Shown piece after piece: positions 47,811 through 63,168 of a stretch of DNA of 64,000 nucleotides; positions within the stretch are counted from its first letter, which is position 1, and each line of letters opens with the position of its first letter. Below the pieces are notes generated by a model, which had not been told where the DNA came from, did no database searches, and saw nothing but the letters and a program-made list of their open reading frames with translations. The stretch is taken from positions 184,011 through 248,010 of the forward strand of contig CADASN010000002.1 in assembly GCA_902790635.1 (NCBI GenBank), given 5' to 3'. This DNA comes from an uncultured Bacteroidia bacterium. GTDB taxonomy: Bacteria; Bacteroidota; Bacteroidia; Bacteroidales; UBA932. A program made the position numbers and the translations under genes.

Positions 47811-49274
47811 ATGAAAAAGACCCTTACGCTGTTGCACTCCAACGATTTACATGGAGACTTCCTGGCCGAGAAGGTGGATGATAAGCTCACCGGCGGTGTC
47901 TCCATGCTCTCCGGTTATATCTCCAAGACCCGAAAAGAAGAAAAGAACGTCTTGTACGCCATCTCCGGCGACATGTTCAAAGGCTCCCTGATCGATCAGG
48001 AATACAGGGGCATCTCCACCATCGAGATCATGAACCTGCTGGCTCCCGACGTCGTGACCCTGGGCAACCATGAGGTCGACTACGGACTCGCCCACCTCCT
48101 CTTCCTGGAGAAGTGCGCCAAGTTCCCGATCATCAATGCCAACATGTTCCTGACCAGCAACAATACCCGCCTGTTCAAGTCCCACAAGATCATCGAGATC
48201 GACGGGATGAAGATCATGTTCATCGGTATCCTGACCGAGGATGTGCTGGAATACACGCGTAACGAGAAGCTGATCAGCACCCTGGTCGGCATCAAGGATG
48301 CCGCCGAAGAAGTGGGCCGGATCTGCATGGCCTACCAGACCGTCGACATCGACCTGACCGTCCTGTTGACGCATATCGGATACGAGAATGACCAGAAGCT
48401 GGCAGCGGAACTGGATCCGGACTGGGGCGTGGACCTGATCATCGGCGGCCATTCGCACACCCTGATCGACAAGCCGGCGGTGGTGGCCGGCATCCCGATC
48501 GTCCAGGCCGCCGTAGGCACGGACCAGATCGGTCGTTTCGACCTGGTCATCGACACGGACACCAATTCCATCGACTCCTATACCTGGAAACTCATCCCCA
48601 TCAATGCCGACAACTGCCCGCGCGACCTCGAACTGGAAAAGGTGGTGGAGAACTACAAGTCGGTCACGGACGCTGTCTATGAGCAGGTCCTGACCCGCCT
48701 GGACGGGGTCTATACCCAGGATCGCCGGAACCGGGATTCGACGCTCAGCCACCTGTTCACCGACATCGTCAAGGAAGGCACCGGCGTCGATGTCGTCATG
48801 ATCTCCAGCGGCGCCATCCGTGGCACCCGGCTCGGGGAGGTCGTCACGAAGGGGGACCTCCGCAAGGTCTATCCTTATGACAACAAGGTCATCGAATTCA
48901 AACTTACCGGCAAGCAGTTCCGTGAAGCCATCCTGTGGATGCTCCGGGACGAGTCCATCGACGCGCCCATCGACGGCGGGGAATTCTATCAGCTGTCCAA
49001 AGGCGTCAGGATCGTTTACAACCAGAAAGAGCACCGTCTGGAGACGTTCGAACTGAACGGACGGAGCATCCAGGACGACGACCTGATCAAGATCGCGATG
49101 GGCGATTTCCACTACAACAACATCGAGCATTTCCTGCAGATCAAGCACGAGGATATCCTGAAGAACGGTCCCCTCAAGACCCTCTCCTCCTCCGGCTACG
49201 TGATCATCGAGGAGCGCATGAGCGGCGTCCCCCTCATCCGCGTGGACAAGGAAGAGCGGATCACCATCAAATAG
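47811..49274 (+). CDS. Bifunctional UDP-sugar hydrolase/5'-nucleotidase family
   Basis: A 487-residue calcineurin-like metallophosphatase. Metal motifs are HSNDLHGD near the N-terminus, AISGDMF, TLGNHEVDYG, LLTHIG and IGGHSHT; the C-terminal substrate domain contains ISSGAIRG and GGEFYQLSKGVRIVYN. It lacks a signal peptide, so it is predicted to be cytosolic, unlike periplasmic UshA. It dephosphorylates nucleotides or related compounds. A very strong hairpin follows the gene. Confidence 0.86.
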   Translation: MKKTLTLLHSNDLHGDFLAEKVDDKLTGGVSMLSGYISKTRKEEKNVLYAISGDMFKGSLIDQEYRGISTIEIMNLLAPDVVTLGNHEVDYGLAHLLFLEKCAKFPIINANMFLTSNNTRLFKSHKIIEIDGMKIMFIGILTEDVLEYTRNEKLISTLVGIKDAAEEVGRICMAYQTVDIDLTVLLTHIGYENDQKLAAELDPDWGVDLIIGGHSHTLIDKPAVVAGIPIVQAAVGTDQIGRFDLVIDTDTNSIDSYTWKLIPINADNCPRDLELEKVVENYKSVTDAVYEQVLTRLDGVYTQDRRNRDSTLSHLFTDIVKEGTGVDVVMISSGAIRGTRLGEVVTKGDLRKVYPYDNKVIEFKLTGKQFREAILWMLRDESIDAPIDGGEFYQLSKGVRIVYNQKEHRLETFELNGRSIQDDDLIKIAMGDFHYNNIEHFLQIKHEDILKNGPLKTLSSSGYVIIEERMSGVPLIRVDKEERITIK

Positions 49275-49293
49275 GCAGGTCGCCTGGAAATTG

Positions 49294-49333
49294 CCAGTCG
49301 GGCCTCTTCCCACAGCGGAAGAGGCCCGACTGG
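49294..49333 (+). terminator. 17-bp hairpin after 5'-nucleotidase gene
   Basis: Perfect 17-bp stem (49294-49310 with 49317-49333) and a 6-base loop, 19 bases after the stop. No long T run follows, so it may act as a terminator with help or as an RNA 3' end protector. Confidence 0.7.
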
Positions 49334-49360
49334 ATTTCTGACGCGATTTCTTCCGCTGTT

Positions 49361-49392
49361 ATTGGAGATATTAAAATTTTTAATTACATTTG
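49361..49392 (+). promoter_or_regulatory. Promoter of the arginine operon
   Basis: A TTGG in the -33 region (49362-49365) and the -7 box TACATTTG (49385-49392). Transcription would start near 49396, just before the leader-peptide ATG at 49400, giving a leader RNA of about 205 bases before the first enzyme gene. Confidence 0.65.
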
Positions 49393-49399
49393 CAAAGTT

Positions 49400-49444
49400 A
49401 TGTTATACGTGTATTACCAGTTCTCCAGACGAGACCGAAGATAG
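49400..49444 (+). CDS. Arg-rich leader peptide, putative attenuator
   Basis: A 14-codon frame, MLYVYYQFSRRDRR, then TAG. Four of its last five codons are arginine (AGA CGA GAC CGA AGA), two of them AGA, a codon that looks scarce in the GC-rich neighbouring genes. It starts within about 8 bases of the promoter's -7 box and lies at the head of the RNA for the arginine biosynthesis operon. The end of the frame overlaps the left arm of a hairpin. This is the architecture of amino-acid attenuators. Translation and regulation are inferred; no homologue search was possible. Confidence 0.65.
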   Translation: MLYVYYQFSRRDRR

Positions 49445-49580
49445 GAGGCGTAGAACCCTCCCACATCTTCGGAAATTCAATGAGATCCCGGGGCGAGCCC
49501 GGAAGACGGTAGTCAGTAATCCCTCAATAGTATGAATTTTCGCCTAATAATTGCAATTGACAATCTCGGTTTGTCTTGCC
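49435..49580 (+). promoter_or_regulatory. Alternative RNA pairings in the arginine leader
   Basis: Segment 1 CCGAAGAT (49435-49442, inside the last Arg codons) pairs with segment 2 ATCTTCGG (49465-49472), and an inner GGAGG/CCTCC (49444-49448 with 49457-49461) adds five pairs. Segment 2 (TCTTCGG) can instead pair, with one bulge, with segment 3 CCGGAAGA (49499-49506). That would open a local hairpin at 49488-49502. Segment 3 (GGAAGAC) can also pair with GTCTTGCC (49573-49580), which is followed by GGGCTTTTATT. A ribosome on the Arg codons would decide whether segment 2 is free. The 3:4 pairing has a large loop and is the weakest element; I see no classic terminator. Confidence 0.5.
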
Positions 49581-49603
49581 ATTAGGGCTTTTATTGTATA
49601 GTC

Positions 49604-50173
49604 ATGAGTATCAACGTCATGGTGGCGAACGAGAGCCACACCCGCTACGCAGAAGAAATCTGTCACGAGATCTACATCTCCTCACTGGAGCGCAAGACCG
49701 GTATCGCCAAACGTACGCCGGAGTACATTATGGAGAAAATGAGGGCCGGCAAGGCCGTTATCGCCGTTTCCGAAGAAGACGGTGCCGAAGAGTTCGCCGG
49801 CTTCTCCTACATCGAGTCCTGGGGCGGCAAAAGCTTCGTCGCCAACTCCGGTCTGATCGTCGCGCATAAATTCCGCGGCCAGGGCATCGCCCGGCGCATC
49901 AAGGAGCAGACCTTCATCCTCTCCCGCAAACTCTTCCCGGACGCCAAGATCTTCTCCATCACCACCGGCGCGGCGGTGATGAAGATGAATTACGAATTCG
50001 GCTTCCGCCCCGTCCCCTATACCGAACTCACGGACGATCCCGAGTTCTGGAAGGGCTGCGAGGGCTGCCGCAACTTCGAGGTCCTGAAGAGCCATGAATA
50101 CAAGATGTGTATCTGCACCGGCCTGCTCTACGACCCCAAGGAGCATCTGGAGATCCGCCATCCGGGGGAATAG
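49604..50173 (+). CDS. GNAT acyltransferase of the arginine operon
   Basis: A 189-residue GNAT enzyme: NSGLIVAHKFRGQGIARRIKEQTF contains the acetyl-CoA loop RGQGIA, and TTGAAVMKMNYEFGFRPV the C-terminal part of the fold. Its place as first gene of the arg cluster, as in other Bacteroidota, suggests it acylates glutamate (acetyl or succinyl), replacing ArgA or ArgJ, which are not present. Substrate inferred from context. A Cys-rich tail (CEGCRNFEV, YKMCICTG) is unusual and could bind a metal. Confidence 0.72.
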   Translation: MSINVMVANESHTRYAEEICHEIYISSLERKTGIAKRTPEYIMEKMRAGKAVIAVSEEDGAEEFAGFSYIESWGGKSFVANSGLIVAHKFRGQGIARRIKEQTFILSRKLFPDAKIFSITTGAAVMKMNYEFGFRPVPYTELTDDPEFWKGCEGCRNFEVLKSHEYKMCICTGLLYDPKEHLEIRHPGE

Positions 50174-50220
50174 ATTTTTCGCTTCGCTCAAAATGACAAA
50201 TAACGGCTCAAAATGACAAA
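50174..50220. repeat. Dispersed intergenic repeat with duplicated end
   Basis: The 27-base unit at 50174-50200 reads, on the minus strand, TTTGTCATTTTGAGCGAAGC followed by GAAAAAT. Its end GCTCAAAATGACAAA is repeated at 50206-50220. The type is common between genes in several bacterial groups. A related copy lies inside argC (52054-52080). The second partial copy contains an ATG (50213) in frame with argG. Confidence 0.7.
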
Positions 50221-50224
50221 CGAT

Positions 50225-51439
50225 ATGGAAAAGAAAAAGAAAGTCGTGGTCGCGTTCAGCGGCGGACTGGATACCTCCTACACGGTGATGTACCTTGCCC
50301 GGGAGAAGGGTTATGAGGTGCATGCCGCCTGTGCCAATACCGGCGGCTTCAGCCCGGAGCAGCTGAAAACCAACGAAGAAAACGCCTATAAACTGGGCGC
50401 CACGAAATACGTCACCCTCGACGTGACGCAGGAATACTACGCCAAGAGCCTGAAATACATGGTGTACGGCAATGTGCTGCGCAACGGGACCTATCCCATC
50501 TCGGTCTCGTCCGAGCGCATCTTCCAGGGCATGGCCATCGCCCGCTACGCCAACGAGATCGGCGCGGATGCCATCGCGCACGGCTCGACCGGCGCCGGCA
50601 ACGACCAGGTCCGTTTCGACATGACCTTCCTGGTGATGTGCCCGGACATGGAGATCATCACCCTCACGCGCGACGGCAACCTTTCGCGCAAGGAAGAGGT
50701 CGATTACCTCAATGCGCACGGCTTCCATGCCGACTTCACCAAGCTCAAGTACTCCTACAACGTCGGTATCTGGGGCACCTCCATCTGCGGCGGCGAGATA
50801 CTGGATTCGAAGCAGGGCCTGCCCGAGAGCGCTTACCTCAAGCAGGTGAGCAAGAGCGGCTCCGAGATCCTCAGCCTCGGCTTCGAAAAGGGCGAGCTCA
50901 AGAGCGTGAACGGTGTGGACTACGACGACAAGATCGCCGCCATCCAGGCCGTGGAGGCCGTGGGCGCCCCCTACGGCATCGGCCGCGACATGCATGTGGG
51001 CGATACCATCATCGGCATCAAGGGACGCGTGGGCTTCGAAGCCGCCGCCCCGATGCTCATCATCGGCGCACACAAGTTCCTGGAGAAATTCACCCTCTCC
51101 AAGTGGCAGCAGTATTGGAAGGACCAGGTTGCGAACTGGTACGGCATGTTCCTGCATGAGAGCCAGTACCTCGAGCCCGTGATGCGGGACATCGAGGCCA
51201 TGCTCGAGAGCAGCCAGCGCAACGTCAACGGCACCGTTACCCTCGAGCTGCGTCCCTACGGCTTCTCCACCGTGGGCGTGGACTCCCCCGACGACCTCGT
51301 CAAGAGCAAACTCGGCGAATACGGCGAGACCCAGAAGGGCTGGACGGCCGAAGAAGCCAAGGGCTTCATCAAAGTGACCTCCACGCCGCTGCGCGTTTAC
51401 TACGGCAACCACAAGGACGAATTCAAGGGCGATGATTAA
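50225..51439 (+). CDS. argG: Argininosuccinate synthase
   Basis: A 404-residue ATP-dependent ligase joining citrulline and aspartate. The ATP loop is VAFSGGLDTSY, followed by the YPISVSSERIFQ and HGSTGAGNDQVRFD blocks. In the succinyl pathway citrulline is released before this step. I choose ATG 50225 (MEKKKKVVV) because the ATG four codons upstream lies in an intergenic repeat. Its end overlaps argC by 8 bases. Confidence 0.93.
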   Translation: MEKKKKVVVAFSGGLDTSYTVMYLAREKGYEVHAACANTGGFSPEQLKTNEENAYKLGATKYVTLDVTQEYYAKSLKYMVYGNVLRNGTYPISVSSERIFQGMAIARYANEIGADAIAHGSTGAGNDQVRFDMTFLVMCPDMEIITLTRDGNLSRKEEVDYLNAHGFHADFTKLKYSYNVGIWGTSICGGEILDSKQGLPESAYLKQVSKSGSEILSLGFEKGELKSVNGVDYDDKIAAIQAVEAVGAPYGIGRDMHVGDTIIGIKGRVGFEAAAPMLIIGAHKFLEKFTLSKWQQYWKDQVANWYGMFLHESQYLEPVMRDIEAMLESSQRNVNGTVTLELRPYGFSTVGVDSPDDLVKSKLGEYGETQKGWTAEEAKGFIKVTSTPLRVYYGNHKDEFKGDD

Positions 51440-52424
51440 GGTCGGCATCCTCGGCGGAGCCGGATACACCGCCGGCGAACTGCTCCGCATCCTGGTGAAC
51501 CACCCGGAGGTGGAGATTGTCTTCGTGCACTCGACCAGCAATGCCGGCAACCACCTCTACGACGTGCATGGCGGGCTTTTCGGCGACACGGACCTGTGTT
51601 TCAGCGACAGCTATGACCTGGACGCGGTGGACGTGCTTTTCCTCTGCTCCGCGCATGGCAAGAGCCGGGAGTTCTGGGAGCAGAACGCCTGCCCGGCGGG
51701 TCTGATAATCGTGGACCTGGCACAAGACTACCGCGATGAATCCGACGGCTACGTGTACGGCCTTCCGGAGTGGCAGCGGGAGCGGATCCGCGCTGCGCGC
51801 AAAATTGCCAACCCCGGCTGCTTCGCCACGGCGATCCAACTGGCGCTGCTGCCCCTGGCGCACGCCGGTCTGCTGCAGTCCACCGTCCATGTGACGGCGC
51901 TTACCGGATCCACCGGTGCGGGCGTCAAGCCCTCCGCGACGACGCATTTCAGCTGGCGGACGGACAATTTGTCGACCTATAAAGTATTTGAGCACCAGCA
52001 TTTGATCGAGATTTGCCGCAATCTGGGCCTGATCCAGCCCTCGTTTGCCGCTCTTTGTCATCCTGAGTGCGGCGAAGGATATCCGGTCCGGTTCGTCCCG
52101 ATGCGGGGCGACTTCGCCCGTGGCATCTTCGCCTCCGTGACCGTGGATTGCCCGCTGGACGGTGAGGCGGCCCTGAAGCTGTATCGGGACTTCTACGCGG
52201 ACGCCGCGTTTACCTACGTCTCCGACCGCCCGGTGGATCTCAAGCAGGTGGTCAATACCAACAAGTGCATCGTCGCCCTGGAAAAGCACGGGGACACCCT
52301 CGTGATCTCCTCGGTCATCGACAACCTCCTCAAGGGAGCGTCCGGCCAGGCGGTGCAGAATATGAACCTGATCTGTGGCCTCCCTGAGACCACGGGCCTG
52401 AAGCTGAAGGCATCAGCATTCTAG
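51432..52424 (+). CDS. argC: N-acyl-gamma-glutamyl-phosphate reductase
   Basis: A 330-residue NADPH-dependent reductase making N-acylglutamate semialdehyde. The nucleotide loop is VGILGGAGYTAGELL, the catalytic Cys is in IANPGCFATAIQ, and the conserved late motif is VPMRGDFARGIFASV. Between LIQPSF and that motif sit about ten extra residues, ALCHPECGEG, encoded by a copy of the dispersed repeat (52054-52080) read in frame. Both flanking motifs are intact, so the enzyme may still work. Confidence 0.92.
   Translation: MIKVGILGGAGYTAGELLRILVNHPEVEIVFVHSTSNAGNHLYDVHGGLFGDTDLCFSDSYDLDAVDVLFLCSAHGKSREFWEQNACPAGLIIVDLAQDYRDESDGYVYGLPEWQRERIRAARKIANPGCFATAIQLALLPLAHAGLLQSTVHVTALTGSTGAGVKPSATTHFSWRTDNLSTYKVFEHQHLIEICRNLGLIQPSFAALCHPECGEGYPVRFVPMRGDFARGIFASVTVDCPLDGEAALKLYRDFYADAAFTYVSDRPVDLKQVVNTNKCIVALEKHGDTLVISSVIDNLLKGASGQAVQNMNLICGLPETTGLKLKASAF
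52054..52080 (+). repeat. Repeat copy inside argC coding sequence
   Basis: 27 bases starting TTTGTCATCCTGAGTGCGGC match the reverse complement of 50174-50200 at 20 of 27 positions. They encode Leu-Cys-His-Pro-Glu-Cys-Gly-Glu-Gly, residues 208-216, in a region where I would expect only a short loop. Confidence 0.7.
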
Positions 52425-52427
52425 TAT

Positions 52428-53555
52428 ATGAATCTTTTCGACGTCTATTCCCTTTTCAATGTCACGCCCGTGCGCGCGCAAGGATGCACCGTGTGGGATG
52501 ACAAAGGGCAGGAATACCTCGACCTGTACGGCGGCCATGCCGTCATTTCCGTAGGTCACTGCCATCCGCATTACGTGGAGGCACTGAAGTCGCAGCTGGA
52601 CAAGATCGGCTTCTACTCCAACAGCGTCCGCAATCCGCTGCAGGAGGAACTGGCCCGCCGGATCGGCGAGGTCAGCGGCTATGAGGACTATTCCCTCTTC
52701 CTGGACAACAGCGGCGCGGAGTCCAACGAGAACGCGGTCAAACTGGCCTCTTTCCATACCAACCGTGACCGGGTGATCGCGTTCCGCCGCAGCTTCCACG
52801 GCCGCACTTCCGGCGCCGTGGCGCTGACGGACAACCCGGCGATTGTTTCCCCCTTCAATGCGCACCACCGCGTCACCTTTGTCGATCTGAACGACGGCGA
52901 CGCCGTGGAAGCCGAGCTGTCGAAGGGCGGCGTGGCCGCAGTGATCGTCGAGGGCATCCAGGGATGCGGCGGCATCCATGTGCCTACGCAGGGCTTCCTG
53001 CAGGCGCTCAGCAACTTGTGCCGCCATTACGGTGCCGCGCTCATCCTCGACGAGGTGCAGAGCGGCTACGGCCGTACAGGTAAGTTTTTCGCCCACCAGT
53101 GGGCGGGCATCCGGCCGGACATCATCACGATGGGAAAGGGCATCGCGAACGGTTTCCCCTGCGGGGGCATCCTGATCTCTCCGGAATTCCAGGCCCGGAA
53201 GGGCATGCTCGGCACCACCTTCGGCGGCAACTATCTCGCCTGCGCCGGCGCCCTGGCGGTGCTGGACATCATCGAGCAGGAGGGGCTGATGGCCAATGCC
53301 CTCGCGGTCGGCGACTATATCAAGGAATCGCTCCCCCGCTCCCCGCGCATCACGGAGGTACGCGGCAAGGGCCTGATGCTCGGCATCGAGTTCAGTGAAA
53401 GCGTCGCTCCCCTGCGGCAGGCGCTCCTGTATGACAAGCATATCTTTACCGGCGTTGCCGGCCAGAACATGATCCGGCTCCTCGCGCCGCTCTGCCTCAC
53501 CAAAGCGGAGGCCGACCGGTTCCTGGAGGCATTCAACGAAGTACTCGCACGATGA
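52428..53555 (+). CDS. argD: N-acylornithine aminotransferase
   Basis: A 375-residue class-III PLP aminotransferase converting N-acylglutamate semialdehyde to N-acylornithine with glutamate. SGAESNENAVKLA, IVEGIQGCGGIH, LILDEVQSGYGRTG and the PLP lysine in ITMGKGIANGFP are visible. Starts three bases after argC; its stop overlaps the next start by four bases. Confidence 0.93.
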   Translation: MNLFDVYSLFNVTPVRAQGCTVWDDKGQEYLDLYGGHAVISVGHCHPHYVEALKSQLDKIGFYSNSVRNPLQEELARRIGEVSGYEDYSLFLDNSGAESNENAVKLASFHTNRDRVIAFRRSFHGRTSGAVALTDNPAIVSPFNAHHRVTFVDLNDGDAVEAELSKGGVAAVIVEGIQGCGGIHVPTQGFLQALSNLCRHYGAALILDEVQSGYGRTGKFFAHQWAGIRPDIITMGKGIANGFPCGGILISPEFQARKGMLGTTFGGNYLACAGALAVLDIIEQEGLMANALAVGDYIKESLPRSPRITEVRGKGLMLGIEFSESVAPLRQALLYDKHIFTGVAGQNMIRLLAPLCLTKAEADRFLEAFNEVLAR

Positions 53556-54514
53556 AATCCTTTTTCCACGTCAGTGATATCGGCGACCTCGGCGCTGCGC
53601 TCGAGGAAGCGAAGCAGGTCAAAGCTACGCCTTTCGCGTGGAAGCATCTCGGACAGGACAAGACCATCATGCTGGTCTTTTTCAACAGCAGCCTGCGTAC
53701 CCGCCTGAGCAGCCAGAAGGCTGCGCTCAATCTCGGCATGAATCCCATCGTGCTCAATATCGGCCAGGACAGCTGGAAGCTGGAGACCGAGATGGGCGTG
53801 GTGATGGACGGCGACAAGTCCGAGCACCTGCGCGAGGCCATCCCCGTGATGACCAGCTACTGCGACTTGATCGGCATCCGCTCCTTCGCGGGCCTGCAGG
53901 ACCGGGAATACGACTACAACGAGACGGTGCTCAAGCAGTTCATCGAATATGGCGGCAAGCCCGTCATCAGCCTGGAGTCTGCCACCGTGCACCCCTGCCA
54001 GGCTTTCGCGGACCTGATCACCATCGAGGAATACCGCATGAAGAAGCGCCCCAAGGTGGTCCTCACCTGGGCCCCGCACCCGCGTGCGCTCCCCCAGGCC
54101 GTCCCGAATTCCTTCGCTGAATGGATGAATGCGGCGGACGTGGAGTTCGTAATCACACATCCGCACGGCTACGAGCTGGATCCCGCTTTCGCGGGCAAGG
54201 CGCCCGTGGAATACGACCAGATGAAGGCCCTGGAGGGTGCCGATTTCGTGTATGCCAAGAACTGGAGCTGCCCTGGCGTCACCGATCCTGCGCAGTATGG
54301 ACAGATCCTGAGCAAGGACATGGGCTGGACGGTGGATGCCCGGCACATGGCCGTTACCAACAATGCTTTCTTCATGCACTGCCTGCCGGTACGGCGCAAC
54401 ATGATTGTCTCCGACGAAGTGATCGACGCACCCACGAGCCTGGTGATCCCCGAGGCGGCCAACCGGGTCGTTTCCGCCCAGGTGGTGATGAAACGGATGC
54501 TTGAGAGCCTATGA
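53552..54514 (+). CDS. argF': N-succinyl/N-acetylornithine carbamoyltransferase
   Basis: A 320-residue transcarbamylase of the acylornithine type, not ordinary ArgF. The carbamoyl-phosphate loop is FNSSLRTRLS (STRT is changed to SLRT as in this class), with HPCQAFADLITIEEY and MHCLPVRRNMIVSDEV. From memory of the Bacteroides fragilis enzyme, residue 90 (Pro there, Glu in N-acetyl enzymes) sets acyl specificity; here it is Ser90 in GDKSEHL, which favours the succinyl form. Overlaps argB by four bases. Confidence 0.9.
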   Translation: MKSFFHVSDIGDLGAALEEAKQVKATPFAWKHLGQDKTIMLVFFNSSLRTRLSSQKAALNLGMNPIVLNIGQDSWKLETEMGVVMDGDKSEHLREAIPVMTSYCDLIGIRSFAGLQDREYDYNETVLKQFIEYGGKPVISLESATVHPCQAFADLITIEEYRMKKRPKVVLTWAPHPRALPQAVPNSFAEWMNAADVEFVITHPHGYELDPAFAGKAPVEYDQMKALEGADFVYAKNWSCPGVTDPAQYGQILSKDMGWTVDARHMAVTNNAFFMHCLPVRRNMIVSDEVIDAPTSLVIPEAANRVVSAQVVMKRMLESL

Positions 54515-55287
54515 TCTCCCTGTACAAAGTCGGAGGCAATGTCGTAGAGGATCCGGCCGCGCTGGATCTGTTCTGCCGTCAGTTCGCTGCGCTGGAGGGC
54601 CCCCGGGTCCTCGTTCACGGCGGCGGCGTCCGGGCGAGCCAGGTGCAGAAAGCCCTGGGACAGGAGCCGGTCAAGATCGAAGGGCGCCGGGTCACGGATG
54701 CACAGACCCTGGAAGTGGTCACGATGGTCTATGCCGGATGGTGCAACAAGAGCATCGTGGCACGTCTGCAGGGCCTCGGTTGCAATGCGATCGGACTGGC
54801 CGGCTGCGACGGCGGAGCCATCACGGCGCGCCGCCGTCCGCCCAAGACCCTGTCCGACGGGGTCACGGTGGTCGATTTCGGCTTTGTGGGCGATGTGACG
54901 GCCGCATCGGTCAACCGGGAATTCGTCTCCCGGCTGCTGGACGCCGGGATGGTGCCCGTGTTCAGCGCCATCAACCACGACGGTGCCGGACAGTTGCTCA
55001 ACACGAATGCAGACACCATGGCGTCGGCACTTTCCGTCGCCCTGGGCGCAAAACTTTTTTATTGTTTCGAAAAAAATGGCGTACTTTGTGACCGGAATGA
55101 CGACGACAGCGTGATTCCCGTCCTGGATCCGGCCGGCTACGCCCGGCTGAAGGCTGAAGGGCGCGTCGCCGAGGGGATGATTCCCAAACTCGACAACGCG
55201 TTCCAGGCCCTGCGGGACGGTGCCGCCGGAGTGGTCATCCGCAACGCCGACCTGCAAGCCCCCGGCGGCACAGAATTGAAGTTATGA
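54511..55287 (+). CDS. argB: N-acylglutamate kinase
   Basis: A 258-residue amino-acid kinase phosphorylating N-acylglutamate. It begins MISLYKVGGNVVEDP and has VLVHGGGVRASQVQKALG, CDGGAITARRR, and FSAINHDGAGQLLNTNADTMA. In the succinyl pathway the substrate would be N-succinylglutamate. It overlaps the genes on both sides by four bases. Confidence 0.9.
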   Translation: MISLYKVGGNVVEDPAALDLFCRQFAALEGPRVLVHGGGVRASQVQKALGQEPVKIEGRRVTDAQTLEVVTMVYAGWCNKSIVARLQGLGCNAIGLAGCDGGAITARRRPPKTLSDGVTVVDFGFVGDVTAASVNREFVSRLLDAGMVPVFSAINHDGAGQLLNTNADTMASALSVALGAKLFYCFEKNGVLCDRNDDDSVIPVLDPAGYARLKAEGRVAEGMIPKLDNAFQALRDGAAGVVIRNADLQAPGGTELKL

Positions 55288-56375
55288 CTTTGCTGGAAGA
55301 TTCCGTCTCTTTGCTGCGGCAGATGGTCCGCATTCCCTCCCTCTCCGGGGAGGAAGCCGGCGTTGCCGCCTGTGTCGGCGCAGCGTTGGCGGACTGGGGG
55401 ATTCCTTTCGAGAATGTGCGGGGCAACGTACTGGCAGTCAACCGACGATTCGATCCCGCCAGGCCGACCCTCGCCATGGATGCCCACCTGGACACGGTCC
55501 CCGTCAACAACGGTTACACCCGTGACCCCTTCGATCCGGGGATGGATCCCGGAATTGTCTATGGATTGGGCTCCAATGATGATGGCGGAAGTGTAGTGTC
55601 GATGATGGCTGCATTCCGCCATTTCTTTGAGCGGGACCTGCCGGTCAACCTGATGCTGATCCTTTCCCGTCAGGAAGAGGTCTCCGGGCCGGACGGCACG
55701 CGCTGGCTTTTCGCCCCTGACGGCTATTTCGCGACGGAAGGGCGCTATCCCATGCCCCGCTGGGTCATTGTCGGCGAGCCGACCGGGATGCGCGCTGCCA
55801 CCAGCGAACGCGGCCTGCTCGTACTGGACGGGGAGGCGCAGGGCGTCAGCGGCCACGCGGCCCGCGACGAGGGCGTGAACGCCCTCTATATCGCCCTTGA
55901 CGATATCGCCGCCCTGCGGTCGCACGTCTTCGGGAAGCATTCCCCCGTAATGGGCGATGTCCGCCTGACCGTGACGCAGATCGAAGCCGGGCAGGCCCAC
56001 AACGTGATTCCCGACCGCTGCCGTTTCGTCGTGGACATCCGCCCGACGGAGCAGTATAGCAATACCGAGATCGTCGAAGAACTGCAGTCGCTCTGCCGCA
56101 GTACCCTGCGGGCACGCAACCTCGCGAACCGCTCCTCCGCCACGGCGCCGGGCTCTCCCCTGCTCCGCACGGTCGAAGCGCTCGGCATCCCGGCCTTTTC
56201 CTCTCCGACGACTTCGGACTGGATGCGCATCCCCTGCGATGCCCTCAAGATGGGGCCGGGCGAGTCTTCGCGTTCGCACCGGCCGGACGAATTCATCCTG
56301 GTGAGCGAGATCGACCAGGCCATCGAAGTATATATAGCTTTTATTGAGAAGTTCTATGGCAACACTTTGGAATAA
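55284..56375 (+). CDS. M20 deacylase ArgE-like (N-acylcitrulline/ornithine deacylase)
   Basis: A 363-residue M20 zinc hydrolase. Metal and catalytic residues: His68 and Asp70 in DAHLDTVP, Asp99 in GSNDDGG, Glu131-Glu132 in RQEEVSG, Glu165 in VGEPTGM and a C-terminal His in SSRSHRPDEF. DapE and ArgE share this pattern; its place between argB and argH supports removal of the acyl group from N-acylcitrulline before ArgG. Its end overlaps argH by 20 bases. Confidence 0.85.
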   Translation: MTLLEDSVSLLRQMVRIPSLSGEEAGVAACVGAALADWGIPFENVRGNVLAVNRRFDPARPTLAMDAHLDTVPVNNGYTRDPFDPGMDPGIVYGLGSNDDGGSVVSMMAAFRHFFERDLPVNLMLILSRQEEVSGPDGTRWLFAPDGYFATEGRYPMPRWVIVGEPTGMRAATSERGLLVLDGEAQGVSGHAARDEGVNALYIALDDIAALRSHVFGKHSPVMGDVRLTVTQIEAGQAHNVIPDRCRFVVDIRPTEQYSNTEIVEELQSLCRSTLRARNLANRSSATAPGSPLLRTVEALGIPAFSSPTTSDWMRIPCDALKMGPGESSRSHRPDEFILVSEIDQAIEVYIAFIEKFYGNTLE

Positions 56376-57675
56376 AGGTACCTACGCAACAGAGGCGGTG
56401 GACCGATTCACCGTCGGCAACGACCGCATGCTGGATCGCCGCCTGGCCCGCTATGACGTGCAGGGCTCCCTGGCGCACATCCAGATGTTGGAGCACATCG
56501 GGCTGCTCAGCGCCGATGAACTGTCGCTCCTGACGGCGGCGCTCGGCCGCATCGCCGACAGCATCGAGGCCGGCACCTTCGTGCTGGAAGACGATGTCGA
56601 GGATATCCACTCGCAGGTGGAACTGCTGCTGACGCGCGAACTCGGCGAAGTGGGCAAGAAGATCCATTCCGGGCGCTCCCGCAACGACCAGGTCCTCGTG
56701 GACATCAAGCTTTTCCTGCGGGACGAGCTGCAGGCCGTGCGCGGAGAGGTCCTGACCCTTTTCCGCACCCTGCAGGCCCTCAGCGAGCGGCACAAGGAAG
56801 TGCTGCTGCCTGGCTACACGCACGCGCAGGTGGCGATGCCTTCTTCTTTCGGTCTCTGGTTCGGCGCCTACGCCGAAGCGCTGGTGGACGACATGTACCT
56901 GCTGGGCGGCGCCTACCGGGTCGTGGACCGCAATCCGTTGGGCTCCGCCGCCGGCTACGGTAACTCCTTCCCCCTGGACCGCCGGATGACTACGGAGCTG
57001 CTGGGCTTCGCCTCCCCCGTTTACAACAGCGTCGCCGCCCAGATGCAGCGCGGACGAACGGAACGCGCCGTGGCTTCGGCCCTCGGCGCCGTAGCCTTGA
57101 CACTCAATAAGTTTGCTGCGGACTGCTGCATGTATATGTGCCCCAATTTCGGCTTCATCCATTTCCCGGACGAGCTGACCACGGGCTCCAGTATCATGCC
57201 GCACAAGAAGAATCCCGACGTGTGGGAGATCCTCCGCGGCAAGTGCAACCGCATCCTCGCATGTGAGAATGAGATCTCGCTGCTCTGCAGCAACATGCCC
57301 CATGGTTACCACCGGGACTACCAGCTGCTCAAGGACATCCTCTTCCCCGCCCTGGAACTGATGCACGAATGCCTGCAGATGACGGACTACATGCTCCAGC
57401 ACATCGAAGTCAATGAGCATATCCTCGACAACCCGCTCTACGACTATCTGTTCACGGTAGAGGAAGTGAACCGGCGCACCCTCGCAGGGGTGCCTTTCCG
57501 CGAAGCCTACAAGCAGGTGGGCATCGAGGTCAACGAAGGGCGGTTCCGTTACGGCGGCGGCGACAAGGCCACGCTCAAGGCTTCCGATCTCGGCCATACG
57601 CACATGGGCAGCCTGGGCAGGCTCTGCAACGAAGAGATCGCTGCCCTGATGGAGTCAGCATCCAATTGGAAATGA
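56356..57675 (+). CDS. argH: Argininosuccinate lyase
   Basis: A 439-residue fumarase-superfamily enzyme releasing arginine and fumarate. Signature segments are SGRSRNDQVLVD, HTHAQVAMP-like GYTHAQVAMPSS, and the flexible catalytic loop TGSSIMPHKKNPD. Start ATG 56356 (MATLWNKGT), inside the end of the deacylase gene; a TTG four codons earlier is possible. Confidence 0.94.
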   Translation: MATLWNKGTYATEAVDRFTVGNDRMLDRRLARYDVQGSLAHIQMLEHIGLLSADELSLLTAALGRIADSIEAGTFVLEDDVEDIHSQVELLLTRELGEVGKKIHSGRSRNDQVLVDIKLFLRDELQAVRGEVLTLFRTLQALSERHKEVLLPGYTHAQVAMPSSFGLWFGAYAEALVDDMYLLGGAYRVVDRNPLGSAAGYGNSFPLDRRMTTELLGFASPVYNSVAAQMQRGRTERAVASALGAVALTLNKFAADCCMYMCPNFGFIHFPDELTTGSSIMPHKKNPDVWEILRGKCNRILACENEISLLCSNMPHGYHRDYQLLKDILFPALELMHECLQMTDYMLQHIEVNEHILDNPLYDYLFTVEEVNRRTLAGVPFREAYKQVGIEVNEGRFRYGGGDKATLKASDLGHTHMGSLGRLCNEEIAALMESASNWK

Positions 57676-57697
57676 GCAATATAACAGTATAAACAAC

Positions 57698-58777
57698 ATG
57701 GCAAAACGCAAAAAAGCGACACTCGTCCTGCAGAACGGACGCAAAATGAAGGGCTGGAGTTTCGGCTACGACGGCCCGTGCGATGGAGAAGTGGTCTTTT
57801 CTACGGCAATGGTTGGCTACACGGAGAGCCTGACGGATCCTTCCTTCTCCGGTCAGATCCTCTGCGCCACCTATCCGCTTATCGGCAACTACGGCATCTC
57901 CAGGATGGAGACCGACTCCGACGGCCTGCTGAAGAGCTTCGAGTCCGAGAAGATCTATGTCCGCGGCCTGATCGTGACCGATTATAGCGAGGAATACAGC
58001 CACTGGGACGCCGTTGAGAGCCTGGGCGCCTGGATGAACGAGCAGAAGATTCCCGGCATCTCCGGCATCGACACCCGCCTGCTCACGCAGATCCTTCGCG
58101 AGGAAGGCTCGATGCTCGGCCGGATCGTTCCGGAGGGCGGGGATGAGGACTGCTTCGACGTGGCGGACCCCAACCAGGAGAACCAGGCTGCCATCGTCAG
58201 CTGCAAGGAGGTGATCCGTTACGGAAAGGGCGACAAGAAAGTCGTGCTGGTGGATTGCGGCGTCAAGCACCAGATCCTGCGCTGCCTGGTCCGGCGCGGC
58301 GTCGAAGTGATCCGTGTCCCCTGGGACTATGATTTCAACCAGCTGGAGTGGGACGGCCTGTTCATCTCCAACGGCCCGGGCAACCCGGTCCATTGCCAGG
58401 TCACGGTGGACAACATCCGCCGCGCCATGCAGACGGGCAAGCCGATCTGCGGCATCTGCCTGGGCAACCAGCTGCTCGGCATCGCCGCCGGCGCCTCGAC
58501 CTATAAGTTGAAATACGGCCATCGCTCGCACAACCAGCCCGTACGCCAGGTAGGTACGAACCGTTGCTATATTACGGCCCAGAACCACGGTTATGCGCTG
58601 GATGAAAGCACGCTTCCTGCAGATTGGGAGCCGTTTTTCATCAACATGAACGACGGTACCAACGAAGGCATCCGGCACAAGACCAAGCCCTTCTTCACCG
58701 CCCAGTTCCATCCTGAGGCCTCCAGCGGCCCGGAAGACACAGAATTCATCTTTGACGACTTTATCTCCCAGTTATGA
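57698..58777 (+). CDS. carA: Carbamoyl-phosphate synthase small subunit
   Basis: A 359-residue glutaminase subunit. The N-terminal domain begins ATLVLQNGRKMKGWSFG; the class-I amidotransferase domain has the nucleophile Cys in CGICLGNQLLG and the His-Glu pair in FHPEAS. It passes ammonia to CarB. The placement inside the arginine operon ties carbamoyl phosphate supply to arginine need. Stop overlaps carB start by four bases. Confidence 0.95.
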   Translation: MAKRKKATLVLQNGRKMKGWSFGYDGPCDGEVVFSTAMVGYTESLTDPSFSGQILCATYPLIGNYGISRMETDSDGLLKSFESEKIYVRGLIVTDYSEEYSHWDAVESLGAWMNEQKIPGISGIDTRLLTQILREEGSMLGRIVPEGGDEDCFDVADPNQENQAAIVSCKEVIRYGKGDKKVVLVDCGVKHQILRCLVRRGVEVIRVPWDYDFNQLEWDGLFISNGPGNPVHCQVTVDNIRRAMQTGKPICGICLGNQLLGIAAGASTYKLKYGHRSHNQPVRQVGTNRCYITAQNHGYALDESTLPADWEPFFINMNDGTNEGIRHKTKPFFTAQFHPEASSGPEDTEFIFDDFISQL

Positions 58778-61700
58778 TCGACTCCCATATCAAAAAAGTA
58801 CTGGTGCTCGGATCGGGCGCCCTCAAGATCGGCGAAGCCGGTGAATTCGATTACAGCGGCTCCCAGGCGCTGAAGGCCCTGCGCGAAGAGGGCATCAAGA
58901 CCGTCCTGATCAATCCCAATATTGCGACGGTGCAGACCTCGGAAGGCGTGGCGGACAAAGTGTATTTCCTGCCGGTTACCCCTTTCTTCGTGGAGAAGGT
59001 CATCAAGAAGGAGAAACCGCAGGGCATCCTGCTGGCCTTCGGCGGCCAGACAGCCCTCAACTGCGGTGTCGAACTCTACAAGAACGGGATCCTGGAAGCG
59101 AATGGCGTCAAGGTGCTCGGCACCCCGGTCCAGGCCATCATTGATACGGAAGACCGGGAACTCTTCGTGGAGCGGATGGATGAGATCGACATCAAGACCA
59201 TCAAATCCCATCCGGCTGCCAACCTGGAGGAAGCCCGCGCCGCCGCCCGCGAGGTCGGCTATCCCGTGATCCTGCGCGCTGCCTATGCCCTGGGCGGCCT
59301 GGGCTCCGGCTTCTGCGAGGACGAGGCCGAACTGGAGACCGTGGCGCGCAAAGCCTTCTCTTTCTCCCCGCAGGTGCTCGTCGAGAAGTCGCTGCGCGGC
59401 TGGAAAGAGATCGAGTTCGAGGTGATGCGCGACAGCTTTGACAACTGCATCGCCGTCTGTAATATGGAGAATTTCGACCCGCTCGGCATCCATACGGGCG
59501 AGAGTATCGTCGTGGCCCCCTGCCAGACGCTCACCAACGACGAATGCAACTTCCTCCGCAAGAAAGCGATCGAGATCGTGCGGCACATCGGCATCGTCGG
59601 TGAATGCAACGTGCAGTATGCCTTCAGCCCCGACGGGGAGGATTACCGCGTGATCGAGATCAACGCCCGCCTGAGCCGCTCCTCCGCCCTGGCCTCCAAG
59701 GCTACGGGCTATCCCCTCGCCTTCATCGCCGCCAAGATCGGCCTGGGCTACGGATTGCACGAGCTCAAGAATACCGTGACCAAGACAACTCCGGCCTTCT
59801 TCGAGCCGGCCCTGGACTACGTGGTCTGCAAGATCCCCCGCTGGGACCTCGCCAAATTCAAGGGCGTCTCCCGGGAGATCGGTTCCAGCATGAAGAGCGT
59901 CGGCGAGGTGATGGCCATCGGCCGCACCTTCGAGGAAGCCATCCAGAAGGGCCTCCGGATGATCGGCCAGGGCGCCAATGGCTTCGTGTGCAACAAGCCT
60001 TTCAAGAGCGAGGACCTCGACGACCTGATGCGCCATCCCACGGACGTGCGTATCTTCGCCATCGCCGCTGCTTTCGAGGCCGGCTACACGGTGGACCGCA
60101 TCTACGAACTGACCAAGATTGACCGCTGGTTCCTCGACAAGCTCGAGAACATCGAGACGACCTACCGTCGCCTGGAAGCCTGCAAGAATCTGACGGACAT
60201 TGACTTCGACCTGCTCCGGATGGCCAAGTGCCAGGGTTTTTCCGACATCCAGATCTCCCGTGTGCTGGGCGTTCCGGAAGCCAAGGTACGCGAGTACCGG
60301 ACTTTCCTGGGCCTGCGTCCCTATGTCAAGCAGATCGACACCCTGGCCGCGGAGTTTCCCTCTTCGACCAACTACCTTTATATGACCTACAACGGCGAGG
60401 TGGACGACATCAGCTTCGAAGACGGGTTCAACACCGTGATCGTCCTCGGCTCCGGAGCCTACCGCATCGGCAGCAGCGTGGAGTTCGACTGGTGCGGGGT
60501 CAATGCCTTGAACACCCTGCGCAGCAGCGGCTACAAGGCCATCATGATCAACTACAACCCCGAGACGGTCTCCACTGACTATGATGTCTGCGACCGGCTC
60601 TATTTCGACGAATTGAGTTTCGAGACCGTGATGGAGATCTGCAGCCTCGAGAAGCCCTACGGTGTGATCGTGAGCGTGGGCGGCCAGATTCCGAACAACC
60701 TGGCCATTCCCCTCATGCGCGCCGGCGTCCACATCCTGGGCACCACTGCCCATGACATCGACCGGGCCGAGGACCGCAACAAGTTCTCCCAGATCGTGGA
60801 TAAACTCGGCATCGACCAGCCCCGCTGGAGCGAGTTGACCACGATGGAAGATGTGGACCGCTTCGTGGATGAAGTCGGTTTCCCGGTCCTGGTGCGGCCT
60901 TCTTACGTACTGTCCGGTGCGGCGATGAATGTCTGCTACAGCAAGGAAGACATGCGAATGTTCCTGGACATGGCCGTGGAAGTCTCCGAAGAGCATCCGG
61001 TGGTCATCAGTTCCTTCATGCAGCGCTGCAAGGAGCTGGAATGCGACGCCGTGGCGGATGGCGGCAAGGTCATCGCCTATGCCATCTCCGAACACATCGA
61101 GTTCGCGGGCGTCCACTCGGGCGATGCGACCATCCAGTTCCCGCCGCAGAAGATCTACGGCATCACGGCCGCCAAGATCCGCAAGACGGCGGCTGCCATC
61201 GCCGCCGAACTGCACATCACGGGACCGTTCAACATCCAGTTCCTCGCCACTGACAACTACATCAAAGTCATCGAGTGTAACCTGCGTGCCTCCCGCAGCT
61301 TCCCGTTCGTGTCCAAGGTGTTGAAAGTCAACCTTATCGACCTGGCTACCCGTTGTATGCTCGGGCAGCGGCCCGAAAAGATCGACATCGATCCCTTCGA
61401 GCTGGAATACGTGGGTATCAAGTGCTCCCAGTTCTCCTTCGCCCGACTGGGCAAGGCGGACCCGGTGCTGGGCGTGGACATGGCTTCTACCGGCGAGGTG
61501 GGCTGCATCGGCGACAACCTCAACGAAGCCCTGCTCAAGTCCATGCTCTCCGTGGGGCACCGCATCCCGCAGAAGTCCATCCTCATCTCCTCCGGCAATC
61601 CGATCCAGAAGGCCGACCTGCTGCGCGCATGCCTGCTGCTCGCGGACAAGAACTACACCATCTACGCCACGGGCGGTACGTGCAAGTATTTGAATGAAAA

Positions 61701-61977
61701 TGGCGTCCCGGCCCTGCGTGCCTTGTGGCCGAACGAGCAGGAAGAGGGTGCTCCCGCCGCGCTTGACCTGATCCGGAAGCATCAGGTCGAACTGGTGATC
61801 AACATCCCCAAGAATTTCACCCACAGCGAGCTCAGCAACGGGTACCAGATGCGCCGTGCCGCCATTGACTTCAATGTCCCGTTGATCACGAACAGCCGCC
61901 TGGCGACGGCCTACATCCGCGCCTTCTGTGCCGTTCCGCTGGATGCAATCAGCATCAAGAGTTGGGACGAGTATTAG
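58774..61977 (+). CDS. carB: Carbamoyl-phosphate synthase large subunit
   Basis: A 1067-residue synthase with two homologous ATP-grasp halves (GSGALKIGEAGEFDYSGSQ and GSGAYRIGSSVEFDWC mark their starts), a central oligomerisation domain, and a C-terminal allosteric domain (LISSGNPIQKADLL, YATGGTCKYL). Full length. It makes carbamoyl phosphate from bicarbonate, two ATP and ammonia from CarA for the carbamoyltransferase and for pyrimidines. Confidence 0.96.
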   Translation: MIDSHIKKVLVLGSGALKIGEAGEFDYSGSQALKALREEGIKTVLINPNIATVQTSEGVADKVYFLPVTPFFVEKVIKKEKPQGILLAFGGQTALNCGVELYKNGILEANGVKVLGTPVQAIIDTEDRELFVERMDEIDIKTIKSHPAANLEEARAAAREVGYPVILRAAYALGGLGSGFCEDEAELETVARKAFSFSPQVLVEKSLRGWKEIEFEVMRDSFDNCIAVCNMENFDPLGIHTGESIVVAPCQTLTNDECNFLRKKAIEIVRHIGIVGECNVQYAFSPDGEDYRVIEINARLSRSSALASKATGYPLAFIAAKIGLGYGLHELKNTVTKTTPAFFEPALDYVVCKIPRWDLAKFKGVSREIGSSMKSVGEVMAIGRTFEEAIQKGLRMIGQGANGFVCNKPFKSEDLDDLMRHPTDVRIFAIAAAFEAGYTVDRIYELTKIDRWFLDKLENIETTYRRLEACKNLTDIDFDLLRMAKCQGFSDIQISRVLGVPEAKVREYRTFLGLRPYVKQIDTLAAEFPSSTNYLYMTYNGEVDDISFEDGFNTVIVLGSGAYRIGSSVEFDWCGVNALNTLRSSGYKAIMINYNPETVSTDYDVCDRLYFDELSFETVMEICSLEKPYGVIVSVGGQIPNNLAIPLMRAGVHILGTTAHDIDRAEDRNKFSQIVDKLGIDQPRWSELTTMEDVDRFVDEVGFPVLVRPSYVLSGAAMNVCYSKEDMRMFLDMAVEVSEEHPVVISSFMQRCKELECDAVADGGKVIAYAISEHIEFAGVHSGDATIQFPPQKIYGITAAKIRKTAAAIAAELHITGPFNIQFLATDNYIKVIECNLRASRSFPFVSKVLKVNLIDLATRCMLGQRPEKIDIDPFELEYVGIKCSQFSFARLGKADPVLGVDMASTGEVGCIGDNLNEALLKSMLSVGHRIPQKSILISSGNPIQKADLLRACLLLADKNYTIYATGGTCKYLNENGVPALRALWPNEQEEGAPAALDLIRKHQVELVINIPKNFTHSELSNGYQMRRAAIDFNVPLITNSRLATAYIRAFCAVPLDAISIKSWDEY

Positions 61978-63095: not shown

Positions 63096-63168
63096 GGTGC
63101 TGTAGCTCAGATGGTAGAGCAAAGGACTGAAAATCCTTGTGTCGGCAGTTCGATTCTTCCCAGCACCA
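63096..63168 (+). tRNA. tRNA-Phe (GAA)
   Basis: 73 bases with acceptor GGTGCTG/CAGCACC, D arm GCTC..GAGC, anticodon stem AAGGA/TCCTT around loop CTGAAAA (anticodon GAA at 63129-63131) and T arm GGCAGTTCGATTCTTCC. Discriminator A; CCA is not encoded. Confidence 0.97.

Follow-up and report, generated by a model that had tools for sequence, protein, structure and literature searches.

How is arginine synthesis controlled in a bacterium in which the usual repressor cannot be found? Arginine synthesis is commonly under ArgR, a textbook case of control by a protein. The stretch of DNA analysed here (the window, 64,000 nt) comes from an uncultured Bacteroidales genome that is 83% complete and in which no match to ArgR (PF01316) was found, in keeping with the remark in the original prediction that the window contains no argR. 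Comparison of the region upstream of the cluster with its counterparts in related genomes suggests an answer that we hold to be reasonably probable: the 5' leader of the arginine operon would be an arginine-responsive regulatory RNA that has taken ArgR's place in this lineage.

In the window, the operon is a ten-gene run on the + strand, from a putative GNAT-like gene at 49604 to carB, as named by best NCBIfam matches. The first gene (49604..50173, + strand, 189 aa) has no NCBIfam match at 1e-10 and owes its GNAT name to the original prediction. It is followed at 50213..61977, on the same strand, by argG, argC, argD, an argF-type N-acetylornithine carbamoyltransferase gene, argB, an argE-like gene, argH, carA and carB, all presumed to be under the control of the leader. 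The argC, carbamoyltransferase, argB, argH, carA and carB genes score above curated NCBIfam cut-offs; for argG, argD and the argE-like gene the best match, which supplies the name, falls short of its cut-off. Since the carbamoyltransferase (53552-54514) is of the N-acetylornithine type, again above its curated cut-off, the pathway probably runs via acetylated intermediates. Between an upstream 5'-nucleotidase-like gene and the leader, an inverted repeat recognised by eye (CCAGTCGGGCCTCTTC ... GAAGAGGCCCGACTGG, 49295-49334) is likely an end-of-gene hairpin, without a clear U run. In one related locus (L033) the leader precedes a 5'-nucleotidase-like gene rather than the GNAT gene directly, so that gene seems to have been recruited into the operon.

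Relatives of the GNAT-like gene were found in 58 of 101 genomes of the genus, and the best 80 of 158 loci were used from a search of GTDB genomes. Upstream of these relatives, a second element, a hairpin here called H3, lies downstream of the short frame discussed below and is far more conserved than the frame. In all, 120 distinct leaders were gathered by means of the H3 pattern with up to three mismatches, a selection that a more diverged H3 would escape; two of them (L025, L105) are truncated and stand outside the counts over 118 leaders. Common ancestry links the leaders, and the counts therefore cannot be read as independent trials. By record titles the genus includes Candidatus Cryptobacteroides species: some GTDB loci with such titles have leaders identical to those of genus loci (L073 to L011, L075 to L115). 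Alignment A1 contains 42 of the 51 listed references, omitting L021, L022, L023, L117, L195, L197, L202, L207 and L221. Judged by these sequences, the putative arginine leader is a feature of uncultured gut and rumen Bacteroidales that recurs across the genus (Cryptobacteroides).

What does the leader contain? Its promoter (49361..49392, + strand) is of the Bacteroidota kind, with TTGG near -33 and a -7 box, TACATTTG, at 49385-49392, placed as originally claimed just before a 14-codon frame; 7 nt separate the box from the ATG of the frame at 49400. The Bacteroidota -7 consensus is given as TAnnTTTG in PMC7366714. A -7 box stands 6-10 nt ahead of an ATG in 112 of the 118 untruncated leaders, and in 102 of these 112 it matches the consensus exactly. 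Because the box is so close to the ATG, the frame should be nearly leaderless on its mRNA; 5' UTRs shorter than 10 nt make up only about 3.7% of those in Bacteroides, according to the same paper (PMC7366714).

The frame itself (the uORF, 49400..49444, + strand) reads MLYVYYQFSRRDRR* and ends AGA CGA GAC CGA AGA TAG, with its stop at 49442-49444. Both it and the hairpin at 49435-49472 had been proposed from the window's letters, and both recur across the genus. An ATG-started frame with a late CGA (Arg) codon is present in 110 of the 118 leaders. By a rule-based scan, 105 of them have an ATG 6-10 nt after the -7 box that is in frame with a CGA within the last six codons; the translations of five more (L024, L119, L148, L192, L199) also contain an Arg frame, with the ATG 30-52 nt after the box. 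Across the 110 frames, CGA is the last, second-last or, in three leaders, fifth-last codon: 102 have one codon between the last CGA and the stop, 5 have none and 3 have four. Both the CGA and the promoter-proximal ATG could be scored in 105 leaders. They share a reading frame in 103 of these, over more than ten different distances; the two that are out of phase are, by their distance (codon 42), L148 and L192, whose frames begin further down. As the ATG was picked by its distance to the box and not by its frame, this agreement in phase is evidence of coding. The 110 frames encode 99 distinct peptides of 11 to 33 residues, in 31 greedy groups with less than 50% identity: the open frame has therefore been kept despite changes in sequence.

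Codon content points in the same direction. In the 105 uORFs, Arg accounts for 17.5% of codons, against 5.3% in 13 genes of the window. The rare codons CGA and AGA together supply 275 of the 331 Arg codons in the uORFs and 14 of the 291 in the genes. A-type frames have AGA, AGG, CGA or CGT as their fifth-last codon in 27 of 33, all of them Arg with synonymous variation, and in L122 and L198, where the UAGGAGG context has been lost, the Arg codons are retained and the frame ends CGA CGA CGA UAA. Codon bias is a known feature of the leaders of ribosome-mediated attenuation systems, as described in PMC1183508. Ile codons are biased as well, ATA making up 98 of 157 in the 105 uORFs and 3 of 352 in the 13 window genes; in uORFs of the B and C types this rare codon is recurrent near codon 7.

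A short promoter-near frame with cognate codons, one mark of an attenuator, was scored in 110 of the 118 leaders, with at least two Arg codons in 90 of the 110 frames and a single one in 20. Placement before the cognate operon, another such mark, is also seen: the GNAT start follows H3 in 118 of the 120 leaders, the arg genes themselves having been checked in the window. In 51 GNAT upstream regions that lack H3 and served as a negative control, no terminal-Arg frame was found within 300 nt (exact TAnnTTTG box, ATG 4-11 nt after it). Eight of the 118 leaders lack a late-CGA frame upstream of H3 (L013, L060, L082, L093, L126, L127, L129, L189); one of these, L127, has a short frame ending AGA. 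The comparison with relatives thus supports the prediction that the arg operon is preceded by a leader peptide with Arg codons, since both frame and Arg codons are conserved, and the support from conservation exceeds what could be known from one sequence. Searches of the open-access PMC literature showed no description of this leader, or of an Arg leader peptide ahead of arginine synthesis genes in Bacteroidota. The excerpted text of PMC9723704, in which arginine is not named, mentions clues for leader-peptide attenuation before amino-acid operons of Flavobacterium psychrophilum.

How might such a peptide sense arginine? The best reading of these sequences is that it senses the supply of Arg-tRNA through its rare codons. 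Nascent peptides are also known to sense small molecules and arrest the ribosome, as in the fungal AAP and in TnaC. One possibility along these lines is that the leader peptide responds to free arginine from within the ribosome tunnel and halts its own ribosome: a recurrent C-terminal V-R-(L/I/M/R) directly ahead of the stop and the frequency of Ile near codon 7 in the B and C types would fit this, but a constraint on the peptide itself is hard to square with its variety of lengths and the 31 dissimilar groups, and we consider the idea rather improbable. Sensing by decoding is the reading followed here. The anatomy, with rare cognate codons ending a short frame that overlaps the first predicted hairpin, is by analogy that of ribosome-mediated attenuation.

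That first hairpin, H1 (49435..49472, + strand), is recognised from its fold and from conservation of its pairs. Its outer arms, CCGAAGAU and AUCUUCGG, enclose an A and the apical stem GGAGG/CCUCC with the loop cguagaa, and the end of the uORF, with its final Arg codons and stop, overlaps the left arm. Both stems are present in the minimum-energy fold of the window's leader, which has a z of -2.47 (3 of 200 shuffles were equally stable). Every pair of the apical stem is a standard one in 41-42 of 42 A-type leaders. For the outer stem, a leader's own right arm does better than the right arms of leaders with other left arms in 19 of 24 distinct pairs, and in just 7 of 11 where minority left arms are concerned. 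A second pairing, H2 (49472..49541, + strand), joins GAAAUUC at 49472-49478 to GAAUUUUC at 49534-49541 across a spacer of variable length; in the window's minimum-energy fold this region appears as AAAUUCA/UGAAUUU. Against shuffled left arms, H2 pairing gives a mean z of -3.7, with 39 of 39 distinct A-type cases scoring under -1; when arms are swapped between leaders, the leader's own are better in 25 of 39, a low figure because the arms are much alike between leaders. Segment folds suggest a third pairing, P0 (49543..49586, + strand), of AAU at 49549-49551 with RUU at 49581-49583, accompanied in the window by CCU/AGG (49543-49545/49584-49586). The AAU/RUU pairs are standard in all 20 chosen segments (from 94 distinct ones), and P0 flanks H3 in most leaders; it is not kept in leaders such as L013, L126, L127 and L129.

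Under the decoding model, a ribosome would stall on the last CGA when charged Arg-tRNA is short and keep H1 open, and with H1 held open the downstream RNA (H2, P0-H3) would adopt a form in which the operon can be expressed. With arginine in ample supply, translation would run to the stop, the ribosome would leave, H1 would close, and expression would drop. The output might lie in transcription, with Rho or pausing as examples, in how the first gene is translated, or in the decay of the RNA. The intrinsic terminator of an attenuator is a mark that these leaders generally do not carry: none that was terminator-like was found at 49000-50000, agreeing with the earlier remark that no clear one was to be seen, and terminator-like sites occur in 3 of the 118 leaders, two of which (L082, L093) have no Arg frame.

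Are the hairpins mutually exclusive? H1, H2 and H3 recur, with no uniform switch in the predicted folds. When the region covered by a ribosome is masked, predicted P0 goes up in 22 of 29 B-type leaders and down in 15 of 28 C-type leaders; in the A type (n=46) it goes up in 17 and down in 10. A stall at CGA and a ribosome at the stop give near-identical predicted folds, and access to the GNAT start barely moves. A uniform structural switch under a stalled ribosome is not borne out by these predicted folds. The specific rearrangement put forward for the window, in which the right arm of H1 pairs instead with 49499-49506, had to be given up, since the core GAAGAC at that place is present in only 1 of 112 leaders, the window's own. 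Two other candidates were also rejected. A long-range duplex of the uORF tail with H3 is not general (mean z -0.78, -0.24 and -0.10 in the A, C and B types, respectively). For a second leader peptide across H3 (ATG at 49532, ending AIDNLGLSCH*), other leaders have no ATG or have a stop in frame, and L104 alters two of its codons non-synonymously while retaining the pair. On balance, the original prediction is supported in part: its Arg leader peptide finds support, its rearrangement through 49499-49506 does not; H2, H3 and the near-leaderless start had been missed.

The most conserved part of the leader is H3 (49553..49579, + strand; GCAAUUGACAAUCNNGGUUUGUCUUGC as DNA, 27 nt), which is defined by pattern, conservation and fold: an outer stem GCAA/UUGC, a 2-nt bulge (UU, 49557-49558), an inner stem GACAA/UUGUC and a 7-nt loop, UCUCGGU in the window and UCNMGGU in general. 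With up to three mismatches allowed, the pattern occurs in 117 of 400 genus genomes, at 118 places in all, of which 113 match exactly and 5 have one mismatch. Among 94 distinct segments, 21 of the 27 positions are invariant, 3 differ once and 3 vary, the variable ones being N and M of the loop and the second base of the bulge (U, C or G), whose first base is always U. When 106 segments of 81 nt were folded, 87 had the H3 core in their minimum-energy structure; in whole-leader folds the mean pair probability of H3 is just 0.58. Because H3 hardly varies, covariation can hardly be demonstrated in it: there is one compensatory change, C-G to U-A, in L104, a leader whose locus is also present in another genus of the family. 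H3 therefore looks like an RNA selected for its exact sequence, with pairing that covariation cannot prove. Its form, a 5-bp stem with a 7-nt loop, brings an anticodon arm to mind, a reading that was rejected because C precedes the triplet and the triplet varies.

Outside this group of genomes H3 is scarce. In the order, the pattern with up to two mismatches was found in 3 of 393 genomes, all of the same genus; in the family, a covariance model (R1, built from 20 hand-chosen segments of the 94) run with stricter filters matched 6 of 119 genomes and 2 of 25 genera, the match in the other genus being the L104 leader. With default filters the model gave nothing at E up to 1 in 51 GNAT loci that lack the pattern. 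At gathering scores, Rfam models matched only a tRNA at 63096 in the window, and no leader, riboswitch or T-box; below threshold there are two matches in 49300-49700, both on the minus strand with E above 2. The distance from H3 to the GNAT start ranges from 23 to 154 nt, and its position relative to the -7 box from 19 nt (L013, beside the box) to about 200 nt downstream (L024). In L082 and L093, no promoter is recognised between H3 and the gene that lies shortly upstream.

Because H3 is kept in the few leaders that have no Arg frame (8 of the 118 without a late CGA), it should have a task of its own, probably as a second input or as the carrier of the output. What might it bind? A protein or small RNA acting in trans could bring the arginine signal to H3, which is possible but on the doubtful side: the small size, near-invariance, bulge and fixed loop of the hairpin are what a protein-binding site would lead one to expect, and its distance from the GNAT start varies, but the conserved Arg-codon frame would be left unexplained. 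H3 might instead act as DNA, an operator substituting for the ARG box, with the frame incidental. It is indeed a partial inverted repeat with a variable centre, and in L082 and L093 it has no recognised promoter upstream; its asymmetric 2-nt bulge, the wide range of its positions relative to the -7 box, the conservation of the frame and the one compensatory pair change all argue against an operator, making this a highly improbable explanation.

Could H3 be the true sensor? In an arginine-binding aptamer (riboswitch), the UU bulge would form an arginine sandwich, with the uORF as an added or an older layer. This too we consider unlikely. At 27 nt, the hairpin would be very small for a riboswitch, and TAR binds free arginine weakly; both facts count against it. 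So does the near-invariance of the entire hairpin, well beyond the bulge. The retention of H3 in leaders without a late-CGA frame speaks for such a sensor, as does the bulge region, whose secondary structure agrees with the one that PMC6189040 sets out for the TAR bulge and 7SK ASM3. There the first bulge pyrimidine caps an arginine, and in H3 the first bulge U is the invariant one; the letters of the sandwich secondary structure are the same in 94 of 94 distinct segments. The likeness is one of secondary structure, spotted post hoc, and serves as a lead, and the motif is described for peptide-bound arginine. A protein partner of H3 is at least as likely as arginine binding by it. The most far-reaching version is a long shot: bacteria would have in H3 a natural RNA that binds arginine, a riboswitch of minimal size with TAR/7SK bulge geometry, and a two-input RNA made up of H3 and the leader peptide would have displaced ArgR. 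If H3 does bind arginine, it would be a bacterial arginine riboswitch, and if the two-input reading is true, the operon would read both free arginine and charged Arg-tRNA in cis. For the present, the leader is best called an arginine leader RNA with an unexplained, nearly invariant hairpin.

Does this RNA replace ArgR? In what are taken to be the same 400 genus genomes, ArgR is found in 140 and H3 in 117: both in 2, H3 only in 115, ArgR only in 138 and neither in 145. The two genomes with both compare with 41 expected (Fisher p = 5e-24, uncorrected for ancestry), and their ArgR matches (in G545 and G759), kept in the count, score among the lowest. Of the 101 genomes searched for GNAT, the 58 that bear it divide similarly: 23 with H3 only, 32 with ArgR only, 3 with neither, none with both. 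At the level of the locus, 108 GNAT-anchored loci, which include some species twice, from two collections, comprise 57 with H3, 25 with argR nearby, 26 with neither and none with both; one further locus was too short. The three proteins of the argR query came from L144, L145 and L147, L146 having yielded none, and were searched for up to 3500 nt upstream; in the 26 loci with neither element argR may sit elsewhere in the genome. Three of these loci (L010, L072, L084) have a GC-rich hairpin right after the -7 box upstream of GNAT, which may represent a third way in which the genus controls these genes.

The leader is thus almost confined to genomes without ArgR, and therefore has the look of RNA-based control that took over from the repressor. 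In one branch of rumen and gut bacteria, it seems, ArgR was given up for a cis-acting RNA. As both solutions are present within one genus, the replacement is open to study as a natural experiment.

How does the leader compare with known systems? With the amino-acid attenuators of his, trp, leu and thr (PMC1183508), it shares a short promoter-near frame, codons for the operon's own amino acid, biased codon choice and a hairpin over the control codons. The arginine leader differs in having almost no intrinsic terminator and no mutually exclusive partner that was found to be conserved, and in its near-leaderless start and extra hairpin, H3. Judged by sequence, it is best called a variant of leader-peptide control, without an Rfam family match.

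Arg codons serve as sensors in two other leaders. For Staphylococcus aureus rbfL, an 8-residue peptide, reporter and toeprint tests are reported in which the ribosome pauses at two rare Arg codons and translation is thereby controlled (PMC13009471); as is proposed here, a short leader peptide senses arginine by slow decoding of rare Arg codons. The rbfL peptide differs in controlling a biofilm regulator and in having a Shine-Dalgarno sequence, and its paused ribosomes cover the next ribosome-binding site and repress; it has no H3. Salmonella speF orf34 (PMC6386406) likewise has Arg codons that sense arginine, alternative downstream mRNA structures and no Rho-independent terminator, but it belongs to polyamine synthesis, is 34 codons long, has a Shine-Dalgarno sequence and acts through Rho and RNase G, with mRNA decay as part of its output, and has no H3. 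Neither stands before arginine synthesis genes. The carA leader peptide of Pseudomonas aeruginosa does stand before a carbamoyl-phosphate synthase operon and responds to arginine and pyrimidines; it differs in that, according to PMC4997734, arginine acts transcriptionally and possible attenuation is ascribed to pyrimidines, and in belonging to another phylum.

For RNAs that bind arginine, the nearest parallel to H3 is the TAR/7SK arginine sandwich (PMC6189040), with the same A-U pair, bulge beginning with U, and following G-C and A-U pairs; the sandwich holds protein-bound arginine in viral and animal RNAs, and the likeness of H3 is to its secondary structure. No bacterial arginine riboswitch was found in searches of the open-access PMC literature, which turned up under that name only the arginase mRNA of Aspergillus nidulans (Borsuk 2007, cited in PMC5984629). 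That mRNA reportedly responds to L-arginine, as the leader is proposed to do, and differs in coming from a fungal arginase gene. A further comparison is with ArgR and its ARG boxes: in other members of the genus argR adjoins the same operon, mostly divergently (21 of 25 loci, the other 4 being on the same strand), and it differs as a protein repressor acting on DNA, present in only 2 of the 117 genomes that bear H3.
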